The position numbers and the translations under genes were made by a program. From positions 1 through 29,193 of IMG/VR virus record IMGVR_UViG_3300037882_000744: a stretch of DNA of 29,193 nt. The stretch is one strand, 5' to 3'. The notes beneath the pieces were generated by a model that searched no databases, was not told where the DNA came from, and saw nothing but the letters and a program-made list of their open reading frames with translations. This stretch comes from a virus. Positions 1 to 9,491 of this stretch are shown here, piece after piece. Every line of letters begins with the position of its first letter. Within the stretch, counting starts at the first letter, position 1.

Positions 1-351
1 TACTTCCTCTAAAGATACTGAAACTAAATCAAGATCATCACCGTTTAAGTTAGCTATTAACTTCTTGAATTTAATCTCCATTTGATTTTTTAAAGATTCT
101 GAAGATTCGTCGTCCAGTTTTTTAGAAATATCGACTATACCTTCTGAAGATGAATCTAAATTCATTAAAAATTGTTTCATTTCTTTTTTAGAATATTCTG
201 ATTTAATCAGTTGATTTAGTATCTCCTTTTGATATACTTCAACATGCTTAATTAAATATTCCTCTTGTTCTCTAGTTAGAAGTTCTCCAGAGTCAATAGA
301 TTTTAGATAGTAATGAACCGAATTGTCTGTACTCTCTTTTTTATTTTTCAC
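1..351 (-). CDS. RNA polymerase sigma-70-family factor, N-terminal part (cut by window edge)
   Basis: This is an open minus-strand frame of 117 codons with no stop, starting at a GTG (351-349) and running off the left edge. GGAGGG lies just upstream (355-360 on the complement), which fixes the start. Residues 8-50 read like sigma-70 region 1.2: an N-terminal 'DNSVHYYLKSI' element, then 'GELLTREQEEYLIKHVE' and a 'KEILNQLIKSE' helix. This is the same order as 'DPVRMYLREMG..LLTREGEIELAKRIE' in RpoD-type factors. The rest (about 60-117) is acidic and lysine-rich, like the variable segment between regions 1.2 and 2. The DNA-binding regions 2-4 lie outside the window, so function is inferred from one region only. 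It is divergent from the dUTPase operon. A phage sigma would redirect host RNA polymerase to phage promoters; see the repeated extended -10 elements in this window. It could instead be a degenerate sigma-like protein. Confidence 0.72.
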   Translation of the reverse strand, partial: MKNKKESTDNSVHYYLKSIDSGELLTREQEEYLIKHVEVYQKEILNQLIKSEYSKKEMKQFLMNLDSSSEGIVDISKKLDDESSESLKNQMEIKFKKLIANLNGDDLDLVSVSLEEV

Positions 352-372
352 GTTCCCTCCGTATATATTCAT

Positions 373-401
373 AGTATAATTCAAGAGATAGTTTAGTACA
401 A
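373..401 (-). promoter_or_regulatory. putative promoter for the sigma-like gene
   Basis: On the minus strand TTGTAC (401-396) is followed after 17 bases by TATACT (378-373). The predicted start is near 366, giving a leader of about 15 nt that carries GGAGGG before the GTG. The -35 match is modest (TTG only) and the -10 matches 5 of 6. The same 85-bp gap must also hold a plus-strand promoter for the dUTPase operon. TATAAT at 375-380 is a candidate for that but has no clear -35 or TGn. Confidence 0.35.
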
Positions 402-442
402 TAAAAAATATAGTTGTATCAAAATGATAATGGAGAGTGTCA

Positions 443-880
443 ATGTTTTATACAAAAACAAAAGATGTTAAGGATCCAAATAGAGGTACTGAAGGTAGTG
501 CTGGTATAGATTTTTATATTCCTAATGAGGTACAACCTATTACATTAGGTCCTGGAGAGTCTTGCAATATCCCATCTGGAATTAAAGTATTAATACCATA
601 TGGATATGCAGGCATATTCTTTAATAAGTCTGGAGTAGCAATTAAGGGTCTTAATGTGGGAGCATGCGTAGTCGATTCTGATTATCGTGGAGAAGTTCAT
701 CTGAATTTGCATAATGTATCAAATTTAAACATCACAATTAACCCAGGACAAAAAATTGTACAAATGCTAATCCAACCCGTTAATATGTCTTCTGTCATCT
801 GTATTACAGAAGAACAATATAATATGCAACCATCTACAGAGCGCGGTACGGGTGGTTTTGGGTCTACAGGGAGTAATTAA
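443..880 (+). CDS. dut: dUTP diphosphatase (dUTPase)
   Basis: It hydrolyses dUTP to dUMP and pyrophosphate, keeping uracil out of DNA and supplying dUMP. All five motifs of the trimeric dUTPase family are visible in order: AGIDFY (motif 1), NKSGVA (motif 2, with Lys in the usual Arg position), VVDSDYRGE (motif 3), GQKIVQMLI (motif 4) and the C-terminal glycine-rich RGTGGFGSTG (motif 5). The length of 145 aa is normal. The frame also opens at a GTG at 437, but that GTG overlaps the ribosome site GGAGAG (432-437). The ATG at 443 has that site 5 nt upstream and is the better start. The stop overlaps the next ATG by one base (TAATG), so it heads a tight operon with the ThyA-fold enzyme and the kinase. 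Confidence 0.95.
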   Translation: MFYTKTKDVKDPNRGTEGSAGIDFYIPNEVQPITLGPGESCNIPSGIKVLIPYGYAGIFFNKSGVAIKGLNVGACVVDSDYRGEVHLNLHNVSNLNITINPGQKIVQMLIQPVNMSSVICITEEQYNMQPSTERGTGGFGSTGSN

Positions 881-1674
881 TGAAGATATATAATGACATA
901 CACTTTGCGTATTTAGGTACTTTAGAAGACGTTTTAAGTAATCCTGACCATGTATCATCTCCAAGGGGTCAAACTTGCCGTGAGAAACTTAATTATCAAT
1001 TTACGATTACTAATCCTAAAGTTGAAAATATTCTAACTTTTGATAAAGAACGTAATAAAGTAATTGATTCGTATTCAGACAAAGAATTTGATCTATATGA
1101 AAGCGGCTCTAACAAAGTTGAAGACTTTGCTAAAGCTTCCAAGTTTTGGAATCAACTAGCAAATCCAGACGGCACTGTAAATTCAGCCTACGGATATCTA
1201 ATTTGGAAAAACCAATCCCATGGTTCTGATTTTGAAACTCAATTGATTCAGACAGATCCTCCCAAATTTCCAGGAGACGGTAGTATCAGCAGAACTGAGT
1301 CTGTACGTAGAACTCCGTGGGATTGGGCTAAAATGTCCCTAAGACAAGATAAAGACACTCGCCAATCTATTTTAAGATTTAGTTTACCTGAACACTTCTG
1401 GAAAGGCAATAAAGACTTTACGTGTACCCTACATGGTTACTTTCAAATTAGAGATAATAAATTAAGTTTAACCATTAATATGAGATCCAATGATCTTATG
1501 TTAGGTCTTGTTTACGATTTACCGTGGTTTATCAGTTTGATTTATAAAATGCGTGATGAACTTTTAGATGTATATCCAGATCTCCAAATTGGATCGTATA
1601 CACACTATGTTCACAATATTCATATCTACGATAGGGACTTAGATAAAATCAACAAAATGTTAGGACGAGCATGA
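880..1674 (+). CDS. ThyA-fold dCMP hydroxymethylase-like enzyme
   Basis: A 264-aa member of the thymidylate synthase fold. Visible landmarks are the phosphate-binding Arg in SPRGQT (R29), NSAYGYLIW (101-109), a DTRQS element (159-163) at the TS double-Arg position, the nucleophile Cys182 in DFTCT, IRDNKL, NMRSNDLMLG (200-209), and the C-terminal His/Tyr pair in HNIHIY (H248, Y250). The TS residue that reads pyrimidine identity is an Asn three places after 'LG' (LGxxxN). Here it is Asp213 (LGLVYD), the same change as in T4 gp42, dCMP hydroxymethylase. DF.CT, IRD.K and NMRSND also match gp42 as I recall it. The predicted reaction is dCMP plus methylene-tetrahydrofolate giving 5-hydroxymethyl-dCMP. 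It overlaps dut by 1 nt and the kinase by 4 nt. A dUMP-directed hydroxymethylase or an unusual thymidylate synthase remains possible. Confidence 0.8.
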   Translation: MKIYNDIHFAYLGTLEDVLSNPDHVSSPRGQTCREKLNYQFTITNPKVENILTFDKERNKVIDSYSDKEFDLYESGSNKVEDFAKASKFWNQLANPDGTVNSAYGYLIWKNQSHGSDFETQLIQTDPPKFPGDGSISRTESVRRTPWDWAKMSLRQDKDTRQSILRFSLPEHFWKGNKDFTCTLHGYFQIRDNKLSLTINMRSNDLMLGLVYDLPWFISLIYKMRDELLDVYPDLQIGSYTHYVHNIHIYDRDLDKINKMLGRA

Positions 1675-2228
1675 GTCAAGTATTTTTAATTGATGGAATA
1701 GATAGATTAGGTAAATCAAGCCTAATTAAGGGCATCCAAGACCTGTTGGGATATCATTTAGTAGTTCACTATGATAAGCCAAAGAAATTACAAGTTTACG
1801 AGTCTTTATTTAAAGAGAAGGCACTTCAAAAATATCAATTTGAAACAAATCAAAACATGTTTAATTTAATTAAATCTGGGATACCTCTTATTCTAGATAG
1901 AACTCATTTGGGGGAAATGGTGTATGCACCTCTTTATAGAAAATACCCAGGTGATTATGTATTTGAGTTAGAGGCCGAAATGCTTAAAACTATCAAAAAT
2001 GCCAAAGACGTTAGACTAATCTTATTGACCTCCTCTAATTGTGATATGTTGGTAGACGACGGTTTATCATTTGACCCATCTAAAAAGCACCAAGAACAAG
2101 AAATGTTTAAAAATGCTTTTAACAAGTCTCAAATAAGTAATAAGGTAATGATTGATGTCCATAATAATTCAGGTGGATATAGACCATATAACGATATTCT
2201 GTTGGAAGCTGTTTACGGAATAAAATAG
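1671..2228 (+). CDS. P-loop deoxynucleoside monophosphate (thymidylate-like) kinase
   Basis: A 185-aa P-loop protein with an N-terminal Walker A of the thymidylate-kinase type, DGIDRLGKSS (residues 8-17), and an ILDRTHLGE element (74-82) resembling the DR(x)xxxE substrate-binding loop of phage and cellular dNMP/deoxynucleoside kinases. The start overlaps the hydroxymethylase stop (ATGA), implying coupled translation and a linked pathway. The natural job in this position would be phosphorylating the product of the preceding enzyme, as T4 gp1 does for hydroxymethyl-dCMP. That substrate is inference; the fold and kinase class are seen. Alternatives are a plain dTMP kinase, a deoxynucleoside kinase, or a kinase that acts on hydroxymethylated bases in DNA, as known in phages with hypermodified thymine. 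Confidence 0.72.
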   Translation: MSQVFLIDGIDRLGKSSLIKGIQDLLGYHLVVHYDKPKKLQVYESLFKEKALQKYQFETNQNMFNLIKSGIPLILDRTHLGEMVYAPLYRKYPGDYVFELEAEMLKTIKNAKDVRLILLTSSNCDMLVDDGLSFDPSKKHQEQEMFKNAFNKSQISNKVMIDVHNNSGGYRPYNDILLEAVYGIK

Positions 2229-7694: not shown

Positions 7695-7761
7695 CCAGTA
7701 CTTTATTTACTGGTGTGGGCCTTCTACTCTCCCCCGTATAGATAGGCCCATTTTTATTTTT
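7695..7761 (+). terminator. tandem hairpin intrinsic terminator after the tube gene
   Basis: There are two stem-loops. CCAGTA (7695-7700) pairs with TACTGG (7708-7713) over a 7-base loop. TGGGCCT (7716-7722) pairs with AGGCCCA (7744-7750), and the stem can extend through TCTA/TAGA (7723-7726, 7739-7742). A T-rich run TTTTTATTTTT (7751-7761) follows. It is the GC-richest hairpin seen in the intergenic sequence and ends the sheath-tube transcript. It also meets the end of the minus-strand cassette, whose last stop overlaps the T-run, so it may act in both directions. Confidence 0.85.
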
Positions 7762-7915
7762 AAAACGGTATAAAATCTAACTCCTCTACGCCGTCATCTT
7801 CTTCATCCAGATCGTCTTCATCCCCATCCTCATCGAAATCATCATCAATATATTCTTCATGTTCTTCTTCAGTTTCTATCTCTTCTAACTCTTGTTTATT
7901 TTTGTAATGTTTCAC
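7760..7915 (-). CDS. 51-aa highly acidic small protein
   Basis: A minus-strand frame starting at GTG (7915-7913) and ending TAA (7762-7760). The GTG is the base immediately after the stop of the upstream gene (TAA 7918-7916), with GGAGG 4 bases before it inside the end of that gene. This is a clear sign of coupled translation. After a short basic start (KHYKNKQ) the protein is almost wholly Asp/Glu (EEIETEEEHEEYIDDD... then DEDGDEDDLDEEDD), finishing VEELDFIPF. Such acidic phage miniproteins sometimes mimic DNA or bind basic partners; that is speculation here. It is the last gene of the inverted cassette. Confidence 0.65.
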   Translation of the reverse strand: MKHYKNKQELEEIETEEEHEEYIDDDFDEDGDEDDLDEEDDGVEELDFIPF

Positions 7916-8143
7916 TTATCCTCCGTTTTTCTTTGAATACATATAAATACCATTATCTCCAAACTCTGCATAATCAAACGAGTGCTGTTTTAAATCGTGG
8001 ACTGCTTTAGACAGTTCCATCGGTTTAATACCTAAAGATATAGCCTTCTCAAAAAGGGTTTTAGGAGTTCCCTCGAAAGCTTGATTATGACGCTTGCTAT
8101 GAACTTGGTACAAGCCGTTTTTTAAGTCTCTAATTCTGTACAT
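7916..8143 (-). CDS. 75-aa protein of unknown function
   Basis: A minus-strand ORF with an AAGG ribosome site about 7 bases upstream. The sequence begins MYRIRDLKNGLYQVHSKRHNQAF and ends DYAEFGDNGIYMYSKKNGG. It reads like a small beta-strand/helix domain, with a middle helix 'TLFEKAISLGIKPMELSKAV'. No known family was recognised. Its start lies inside the preceding 38-aa membrane ORF (14-base overlap) and its end abuts the acidic 51-aa ORF, so it sits in the centre of a compressed run of small genes downstream of the protease. Confidence 0.65.
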   Translation of the reverse strand: MYRIRDLKNGLYQVHSKRHNQAFEGTPKTLFEKAISLGIKPMELSKAVHDLKQHSFDYAEFGDNGIYMYSKKNGG

Positions 8144-8246
8144 TTAAAACCTTCTTTACAAGCATATAGGCCAATATAACAAATCCTCCGGGTAAAATAA
8201 TAGCTAAAATTACCTGAACTGACTTGTATTTAAGAAGCTTTTTCAT
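8130..8246 (-). CDS. 38-aa single-span membrane peptide
   Basis: Found by reading the minus strand: ATG at 8246-8244 and TAG at 8132-8130. The peptide has a basic start (MKKLLKYKS), one hydrophobic span (VQVILAIILPGGFVILAYMLV, about residues 10-30) and a basic tail (KKVLNVQN). The positive-then-hydrophobic layout fits a single-pass inner-membrane peptide. It overlaps the preceding ORF by 17 bases and the following one by 14, consistent with translational coupling. The ribosome site (AGG, 7 bases upstream) is weak. Its small size means chance cannot be excluded. Confidence 0.55.
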   Translation of the reverse strand: MKKLLKYKSVQVILAIILPGGFVILAYMLVKKVLNVQN

Positions 8247-8391
8247 AATAAACCTGCTTTATTTTTAATACCAAATCTTCTAAATCTTTAATATACCTAT
8301 TTGGATTTAGTCTCACTTCAAACGAGTCTCCGTTTACCATGTGAACAACGCAGAAACACTTATTAGTGGCTAAGATTATTGAATCAATCAC
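8230..8391 (-). CDS. 53-aa protein of unknown function, GTG start
   Basis: A minus-strand frame starting at GTG (8391-8389), which overlaps the TGA stop of the upstream gene as GTGA, a classic coupled start. It ends TAA at 8232-8230. It has a hydrophobic strand-like beginning (DSIILATNKCFCVVHMV) and a charged second half with helix-like content (NRYIKDLEDLVLKIKQVYYEK). No family was recognised. It fills what would otherwise be an unexplained gap between two small genes. An internal ATG start (residue 18) is possible but has no ribosome site. Confidence 0.5.
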   Translation of the reverse strand: MIDSIILATNKCFCVVHMVNGDSFEVRLNPNRYIKDLEDLVLKIKQVYYEKAS

Positions 8392-8573
8392 ACTGCCGCC
8401 TTTTTGTTTTTAGGTTTTTGATCTATAAATTTTAAATTAAATAAATCTTTTAATGATTCTTTAACTCTAGCTTCACCGTACGTGGCGAATAGATTTTGGA
8501 TATGAATAGATATTGCCACGTCTGTAGGTGGTAAATCGTGAATGGATTTAATTTTAATTACATTATTTTTCAT
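8388..8573 (-). CDS. 61-aa protein of unknown function
   Basis: A minus-strand ORF with a strong ribosome site (GGAGGAACTT before the ATG at 8573). The sequence reads MKNNVIKIKSIHDLPPTDVA, then a helix 'SIHIQNLFATYGEARVKESLKDLFNL', then a lysine-rich end. It is small, soluble and of no recognised family. It is the first small gene after the protease. The 32-base AT-rich gap between them has no terminator, so readthrough from the protease promoter is expected, and the whole cassette probably forms one transcript. Confidence 0.65.
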   Translation of the reverse strand: MKNNVIKIKSIHDLPPTDVAISIHIQNLFATYGEARVKESLKDLFNLKFIDQKPKNKKAAV

Positions 8574-8605: not shown

Positions 8606-9442
8606 TTATTCTTTAATTAATTTAATTTTAAGATTTTCGCATTGTTGTTTCAAAATGAGATGAAGATAATTAGGAGAAGCTTGACTTGTACCATTTCGAT
8701 AATCATATCCGCCGCCACGATTAGTAGAATACAAATTGAATCCATTCATAGAAACTGCTTTTGGATGAGTATTAGAAGATTGACAAACACCGTCTGGGCA
8801 CAGATTTTGTACTACAAAAAATCCGTTAGGGAGATACTGCATTTTTCCTCTAATCTTAAGACCGTCTATGTAACTAGCTGGATACTGAGGTCTTTTAGTT
8901 AAATCAAAACCTGTTATATCATCACCATTTCCAACAGCTACAGTAACTTTTGTACCTTTACGTTTAAGGAACTTTTGTAATGCTAGGAACTCAGAGAGCA
9001 CGGCTCCCTCACCAGACAAAGATATGTTAATATGAGTAAACTTATCCTCGATAGCTTTATTTATGCATCTGGTGGTATCCTCAGAAGAGGTAAAGCCTTT
9101 ACATGAGTAAATCTCCACATTATGACATAATGGATCTTTTAGATTTTCTCCTAAAGCTATAGTACCAGCTACATGAGTTCCATGGCCTAATTCATCTGTA
9201 TAATCAACTGAATCCTTTATGTATTTAACGTGGTTAACCAAATCCTTATGTGGATCAATACCTGAGTCAATTACCATTACCTTAAATATTTGAGCTTTTG
9301 AACTAATAAGATCATGAGTTTTCTTATCTACTTTGATAGGTTTTATAAGTTTAATAGTTTTGGTAACGGGTTTAAATATAGTCGGTTCTGAGGAACAAGA
9401 TCCAGAAAACAAGAAAATCGCTAATAAAATGAATAATTTCAT
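8606..9442 (-). CDS. subtilisin-like serine protease (S8), predicted lipoprotein
   Basis: A 278-aa secreted peptidase. The frame extends 11 codons further upstream, but AAAGGTGG directly precedes the ATG at 9442, and only that start gives a clean signal peptide: MKLFILLAIFLFSGSC with a lipobox-like FSGSC and Cys16 as the possible lipidated residue. The full S8 catalytic set is present: Asp59 (VMVIDSGID), His87 (GHGTHVAG), oxyanion Asn172 (VAVGNG) and Ser253 (NGTSQASP). The substrate-groove SLSGEG (141-146) is also seen. There is no long propeptide: about 30 residues separate the lipobox from the domain. It would act at the periplasmic or outer-membrane face. It leads an inverted cassette inside the tail genes and is not an expected virion part. 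Lipidation is uncertain because the lipobox is non-canonical at -1 and -3. Confidence 0.88.
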   Translation of the reverse strand: MKLFILLAIFLFSGSCSSEPTIFKPVTKTIKLIKPIKVDKKTHDLISSKAQIFKVMVIDSGIDPHKDLVNHVKYIKDSVDYTDELGHGTHVAGTIALGENLKDPLCHNVEIYSCKGFTSSEDTTRCINKAIEDKFTHINISLSGEGAVLSEFLALQKFLKRKGTKVTVAVGNGDDITGFDLTKRPQYPASYIDGLKIRGKMQYLPNGFFVVQNLCPDGVCQSSNTHPKAVSMNGFNLYSTNRGGGYDYRNGTSQASPNYLHLILKQQCENLKIKLIKE

Positions 9443-9461
9443 AATTACCACCTTTATATAA

Positions 9462-9491
9462 ATTTTACATATCAATTGTCCATAATTACAA
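9462..9491 (-). promoter_or_regulatory. putative promoter for the protease cassette
   Basis: On the minus strand TTGTAA (9491-9486) is followed after 18 bases by TAAAAT (9467-9462). The predicted start near 9455 leaves a 13-base leader carrying AAAGGTGG before the protease ATG. TTGATAT (9475-9469) lies inside the spacer and matches the element repeated on the other strand. The boxes are imperfect. A competing pair, TGGACA/TATAAA, would place the start inside the ribosome site and was not preferred. Confidence 0.35.

Follow-up and report, generated by a model that had tools for sequence, protein, structure and literature searches.

Gene content and layout of the locus

The window analysed here is a 29,193-base IMG/VR virus record, which is a fragment of a large uncultured phage. 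Most of the window is filled by a tail and baseplate gene cluster; in a fragment of 29 kb, the phage DNA polymerase, a dCTPase and any transferase may sit outside it. Three rightward genes at the left end encode a dUTPase, a thymidylate synthase-fold enzyme and a P-loop kinase. The features relevant to this analysis are as follows.

1..384, minus strand: start of a sigma-70-like gene (N-terminal part of the factor), oriented away from the operon and truncated by the contig end (homologous ORFs in relatives)
437..880, plus strand: trimeric dUTPase, operon gene 1 (PF00692, 1.2e-23; PHROG 135, 1e-38)
880..1674, plus strand: predicted dCMP 5-hydroxymethylase of the thymidylate synthase superfamily, T4 gp42-like, 264 aa (PF00303, 2.9e-15)
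1183..1191, plus strand: codons of Ser102-Ala103-Tyr104 (T4 Ser94, Tyr96), hydroxymethylase signature (alignment; PMC6400193)
1414..1428, plus strand: codons of Asp179-Phe-Thr-Cys182-Thr183 (alignment)
1516..1518, plus strand: GAT codon of the pyrimidine-reading residue Asp213, equivalent to T4 Asp179 (alignment)
1671..2228, plus strand: thymidylate kinase-type P-loop kinase, candidate (hydroxymethyl-)dNMP kinase (PHROG 761, 1.6e-11)

The ORFs at 880-1674 (+) and 1671-2228 (+; 185 aa) are both real. The first gene product scores above the cut-off of the dut model TIGR00576 and its canonical motifs (AGIDFY, NKSG, VVDSDYRGE and RGTGGFGSTG) are those of an ordinary dUTPase, translation of which is more likely to start at ATG 443, after a GGAG, than at GTG 437. 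The dUTPase stop codon (TAA, 878-880) overlaps the ATG of the second gene at 880, and the stop codon of the latter (TGA, 1672-1674) overlaps the kinase ATG at 1671. These overlaps at both junctions suggest translational coupling, and bear out the proposal of the earlier note that the three genes constitute one coupled operon. Promoter and terminator scans gave no signal above chance.

Homologous full-length or longer ORFs of the sigma-70-like gene occupy the equivalent position in four related records (L093, L003, L004 and L099), with the copy in G001 (L003) matching the sigma factor family PHROG 351 (1.1e-56). Within the tail cluster, an S8 subtilase (PF00082, 3.5e-18) whose signal resembles that of a lipoprotein is encoded on the opposite strand (8606-9475, minus) and is accompanied by small ORFs (7760-8573, minus); S8 proteases are present too in the relatives G003 and G005.

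Active-site residues of the thymidylate synthase-fold enzyme

In addition to PF00303, the product of 880-1674 matches PHROG 160 (7.8e-32). The earlier note had described a ThyA-fold enzyme with a catalytic Cys182 and with Asp213 in place of the Asn of thymidylate synthases, and both observations held. Cys182 is encoded by TGT at 1423-1425 and is equivalent to the T4 gp42 nucleophile, Cys148; the adjacent Thr183 lies at position 147 of the E. coli numbering, where Thr is T4-like, and window Asp179 is the equivalent of T4 Asp145, the Asp that activates the substrate water. Alignment of the selectivity position placed Asp, not Asn, at residue 213, opposite T4 Asp179 and MilA Asp186 in direct alignments and opposite Asn177 of E. 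coli ThyA in a multiple alignment; the ThyA sequence was verified by its Cys146, His147 and Asn177. This pyrimidine-reading position is Asn in thymidylate synthases and in dUMP-hydroxymethylases.

All of the tested active-site and signature residues of T4 gp42 (PDB 1B49, 6A9A) are matched in the window enzyme (E60, S94, Y96, R123, D145, C148, T149, S169, D171, D179, H216 and Y218, with window equivalents including Glu69 for E60, Thr183 and Asp205), save for one phosphate-binding arginine, Arg124, which is Gln in the window. This substitution is probably tolerated, because Gln also occurs at this position in 80 of 80 loci read (the best 80 of 280 relatives) and in the ViI-type dUMP-hydroxymethylase. 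The motifs DF.CT (KDFTCT in the window, SDFMCT in T4), IRD.K and an exact NMRSND are common to both proteins, as had been noted previously. The two enzymes nevertheless differ in that they are 26% identical, are distinguished by an insert of ~30 residues before the WDWA helix and belong to different phage lineages.

The T4 ternary complex defines a signature of hydroxymethylation consisting of Asp at the third position ahead of the Cys (Cys-3), Ser-x-Tyr, Asp179 and lack of a C-terminal tail (PMC6400193). Like T4 gp42, the window enzyme is missing the C-terminal tail, with 14 residues beyond the HxY motif as against 55-63 in the thymidylate synthase references; a sister clade has 54-87. The residues at Cys-3, Cys+1 and position 177 were also compared. 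Asn177 to Asp marks thymidylate synthases from contigs with modified cytosine, and 177 and 147 were the top-scoring positions in that analysis, distinguishing modified from unmodified contigs (PMC8670742). Canonical synthases have Leu at Cys-3, His, Met or Val at Cys+1 and Asn at 177, such that the Asp, Thr and Asp of the window, along with the missing tail, argue against an ordinary thymidylate synthase.

Two other substrate or product assignments bear on these same residues. A dUMP hydroxymethylase, feeding hydroxymethyluracil or a thymidine-hypermodification pathway, would suit the adjoining dUTPase, the hydroxymethylase-type Asp179 and the thymidylate kinase-like neighbour, but the ViI and M6 types of dUMP-hydroxymethylase show Asp, Asn and Asn at the three positions, with Asn at both 147 and 177 where the window has Thr and Asp, and are set apart in the tree described below; we regard this assignment as exceedingly improbable. 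A dCMP 5-methylase, leading to replacement of cytosine by 5-methylcytosine as in the Xp12 type, is also very unlikely. Conversion of a thymidylate synthase into a dCMP methylase by the Asn to Asp change alone is attributed to Liu and Santi (1992) in PMC8670742 and would favour a methylase; set against this, the hydroxymethylation signature is made up by Asp179, Ser102/Tyr104 and the lack of a tail, and the window lacks the methylase-like pattern of the Microbacterium phage Albedo enzyme, which serves here as a model of how a dCMP methylase might look and has Ile, Met and Asp at the three positions together with Pro and a 62-residue tail.

The sugar preference can be approached by comparison with the CMP hydroxymethylase MilA (PDB 5JNH, 5B6D), in which Asp186 reads cytosine. 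Lys133 and Ala176 of MilA represent a ribose pattern, while Arg and Ser represent a deoxyribose pattern (PMC5175136). The window enzyme differs from MilA in having the deoxyribose pattern (Arg161 and Ser203), pointing to a deoxyribonucleotide as the probable substrate.

Conservation across IMG/VR relatives

Searching IMG/VR by means of the family alignment yielded 280 relatives that passed, and the best 80 of these were read. A twelve-residue signature, ESYRQDCTDDHY, was present in all 80 of these loci (best 80 of 280), down to 38% identity, and departs from T4 solely in having Gln for Arg124. The Ser/Tyr and Arg-Gln stretches belonged to the search pattern and their invariance is partly selected, while Glu, Asp145, Cys, Thr, Asp171, Asp179, His and Tyr218 (T4 numbering) were outside it. 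The Cys, Thr and Asp at the positions of Cys182, Thr183 and Asp213 were likewise invariant (80/80 of the best 80 of 280). This invariance indicates that the key hydroxymethylase residues of the window enzyme have not arisen by chance.

Profile, fold and phylogeny

A profile built from eight lineage sequences was searched against the PDB and an AlphaFold2 model was derived from an eight-row alignment. Hydroxymethylases outranked ThyA, with scores of 88 bits for MilA, 84 for T4 dCMP-hydroxymethylase, 38 for ThyA and 35 for the flavin dCMP hydroxylase AfhB, and the window enzyme fell far under the cut-offs of all NCBIfam ThyA models. The model had a mean pLDDT of 79, with weak regions at residues 113-128, 137-140 and 169-182. 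MilA, the top profile match, was also the top Foldseek match of this thymidylate synthase-fold model, but VIA structural re-alignment resulted in a tie between MilA (Z 21.6) and AfhB (Z 21.4), so the fold by itself cannot choose between them.

This tie with the AfhB structures (9IQC, 9IQU) raises the alternative of a flavin-dependent dCMP 5-hydroxylase of the AfhB/RB69 ORF048 type, producing 5-hydroxycytosine that is arabinosylated later. Such enzymes are of the same superfamily and likewise have Asp at the selectivity position; there is a precedent in Mosigvirus (PMC13390438), and a thymidylate kinase-like gene is also found near RB69 ORF048. A literature search by the name AfhB found no paper. 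The profile scores (35 bits versus 84-88) nevertheless favour the hydroxymethylases, and the RB69 5-hydroxy-dCMP synthase (Glu, Thr and Asp at Cys-3, Cys+1 and 177) has Glu, Thr, Asn and Phe at T4 Asp145, Ser94, Asp171 (a pterin contact) and Tyr218, where the window is T4-like at all four. Long-branched RB69 also falls outside the tree group of the window enzyme, and arabinose genes were not seen near the latter. We therefore assign a slim chance to the hydroxylase.

In the phylogenetic tree, the window enzyme grouped with T4 gp42, Xp15, Effie and Gubbabump (94/94), separately from the canonical thymidylate synthases (100/99) and from the dUMP-hydroxymethylases, with Molly among them (99/99). 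The deeper order is unsure because several reference branches are long.

The adjoining kinase

The third gene encodes a Walker A motif, GIDRLGKS, at 1695-1718. An AlphaFold2 model of the kinase (pLDDT 84) had YorR (Z 15.7) and thymidylate kinase (Z 14.7) as the top PDB folds; the curated cut-offs for thymidylate kinase were not reached (PF02223, 14.6 bits versus 27; TIGR00041, 14.9 versus 83). The protein is a kinase of the thymidylate kinase type and not of the T4 gp1 type. Members of this family were near or adjoining the hydroxymethylase in 39 of the 80 loci read (best 80 of 280), and a canonical thymidylate kinase is present alongside a relative of the window kinase in G003 and G004. Homologues also adjoin the hydroxymethylase in two cultured phages, Lactobacillus phage ATCCB and Enterococcus phage vipetofem, the latter having a homologous dUTPase after the hydroxymethylase in the same cluster; these phages differ from the window in their ~30% identity and in that both carry a beta-glucosyltransferase. 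The earlier suggestion of a dNMP kinase is plausible from the genomic association and from the canonical thymidylate kinase that two genomes have in addition, with hydroxymethyl-dCMP as a candidate substrate.

A guanylate kinase gene lies just upstream of the dNMP-kinase-like gene in one sister-clade record (L131:8548-9030), with homologues in 24 sister-clade loci, and the two proteins might together cover part of the substrate range of T4 gp1. In the huge phage LR756500.1, the P-loop half of the hydroxymethylase-adjacent kinase gene is in other frames (~152478-153000, minus), due to which this gene looks frameshifted or misassembled.

Gene context in relatives

An ordinary thymidylate pathway, in which dUTPase supplies dUMP, ThyA forms dTMP and thymidylate kinase raises this to dTDP, would be consistent with the dut-thy-tmk gene order, the canonical dUTPase and the thymidylate kinase-type kinase. 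Set against it, beyond the residues, the missing tail and the position of the window enzyme outside the canonical clade, is the presence of a separate ThyX, scoring above cut-off in three of the nine first related records (G003, G006 and W01) as well as 21 of another 47; as a consequence, the ThyA-fold enzyme is unneeded for dTMP in these relatives. Also unexpected for a thymidylate operon is a gp56-type dCTPase near the hydroxymethylase in near relatives. We consider an ordinary synthase to be very improbable.

The gp56-type gene (PF08761) overlaps the start of the hydroxymethylase gene in L093, one of the closest relatives found (72% identical), such that gp56-type, hydroxymethylase and kinase-like genes form a run of three overlapping genes; in L003 and L099 it lies within about 1.5 kb upstream. 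All three proteins are 33-37% identical to the T4 gp56 dCTPase-dUTPase, taken as the 171-aa ORF beside dam (unannotated in the record used), and both the T4 and the related proteins match PHROG 173. In the window and L004, the gene immediately preceding the hydroxymethylase encodes a trimeric dUTPase, which has a different fold from gp56. The interchange of these two gene types suggests a requirement of the operon for a pyrimidine dNTP pyrophosphatase and, at least in the sister phages, T4-like removal of dCTP. A dCMP deaminase gene was near the hydroxymethylase in 31 of 46 close loci (among the best 80 of 280).

The near relatives thus resemble the gp56-gp42-gp1 set of T4 in having a gp56-type dCTPase, a hydroxymethylase and a dNMP-kinase-like gene, but differ in having a kinase of the thymidylate kinase/YorR type; in the window, the genes are adjacent rather than scattered as in T4, and the trimeric dUTPase stands in the place of gp56. 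A further parallel is the metagenomic huge phage LR756500.1 (462 kb), which has a hydroxymethylase 41% identical to that of the window, a kinase gene immediately upstream and a separate ThyX. The active-site signature, profile ranking and phylogeny, in combination with ThyX in relatives and the gp56-type dCTPase in near relatives, support the dCMP-hydroxymethylase assignment of the earlier note, and the product of 880-1674 is very probably such an enzyme.

Other neighbours of the hydroxymethylase were observed in the relatives. One, n107, was rejected as a dCTPase, having no family match and being unlike dCTPases. A conserved gene of ~128 aa (G003:74118-74519), usually located shortly upstream, is represented by homologues in 28 of the 46 close loci and is without a match in Pfam and PHROGs. 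Another conserved family, found close to the hydroxymethylase in 32 of the 46 close loci (G005:24785-25351, equal to L019:4785-5348; G003:75377-75976; G004:87056-87598, minus; G006:78224-78799, minus), resembles ThyX weakly but collinearly (6.4e-5 for PF02511 in G005; hhalign probability of 23-50%, with controls <1%), lacks the ThyX RHR motif and is perhaps a degenerate ThyX paralogue. In LR756500.1 (276494-278212, minus), the halves of ThyX are split within one 577-aa frame in an intein-like manner with an HNH-like stretch between them.

Proposed pathway and implications

5-Hydroxymethylcytosine is the altered DNA letter by which T4 evades bacterial restriction enzymes. We think it highly probable that the operon is a T4-like module for production of the hydroxymethylcytosine precursor, carried by phages of a previously unstudied lineage with no relationship to T4. 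Cys182 would attack C6 of dCMP while Asp213 would read and protonate the cytosine, with methylene-tetrahydrofolate as the probable donor of the one-carbon unit; water activated by Asp179, and not hydride, would then be added to the methylene to generate 5-hydroxymethyl-dCMP. The thymidylate kinase-type neighbour probably raises this product to the diphosphate and nucleoside diphosphate kinase would complete the triphosphate, which the phage polymerase would insert instead of dCTP. The dUTPase, or the gp56-type dCTPase-dUTPase of sister phages, would trim dUTP, and possibly dCTP, to monophosphates. The presence of 5-hydroxymethylcytosine in virion DNA is a likely outcome of such a pathway.

This would extend T4-style cytosine replacement to a widespread lineage of large uncultured phages (280 IMG/VR loci passed; the best 80 among them were read). 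If so, many restriction enzymes and some of the Cas nucleases would be ineffective against these phages, which would be targets of modification-dependent defences and may have DNA that is under-sampled by methods that are poor at handling modified cytosine.

Possible decoration of hydroxymethylcytosine

The earlier note also raised a sugar-decorated form. Across the window and seven related fragments, no beta-glucosyltransferase, GT-A, GT-B or carbamoyltransferase match (PF09198, PF00535, PF00534 and PF02543) exceeded the cut-off, though fragments are not enough to establish absence. Decoration is thus unsupported for the window phage. LR756500 differs in this respect, as it has its own T4-type beta-glucosyltransferase (PF09198, 6.7e-23) at 1.4 kb from the hydroxymethylase, for which no counterpart was found in the close relatives of the window; among 47 further records, PF09198 occurred only in L135, a near-copy of LR756500. 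On present evidence, glucosylation fits this distant phage and not the window phage. The homologous hydroxymethylase of Xp15 sits with a carbamoyltransferase. A doubtful, though conceivable, variant of the pathway is that hydroxymethylcytosine in this lineage is decorated without glycosylation, and that in the branch of the window the dUTPase, in the place of gp56, took over dCTP hydrolysis.

In the sister clade, a gene for an ATP-grasp ligase (YheCD/RimK-like) is directly downstream of the hydroxymethylase in 18 of 34 loci (among the best 80 of 280), and hints at a possibly new decoration, as the ligase could join hydroxymethylcytosine to an amino acid or a comparable acid. Examples of this gene, which is near the kinase and guanylate kinase genes, are L141:10901-12115, L136:10849-11847 and L148:10927-12612, and a distant copy is present in LR756500.1 (254760-255749, minus).
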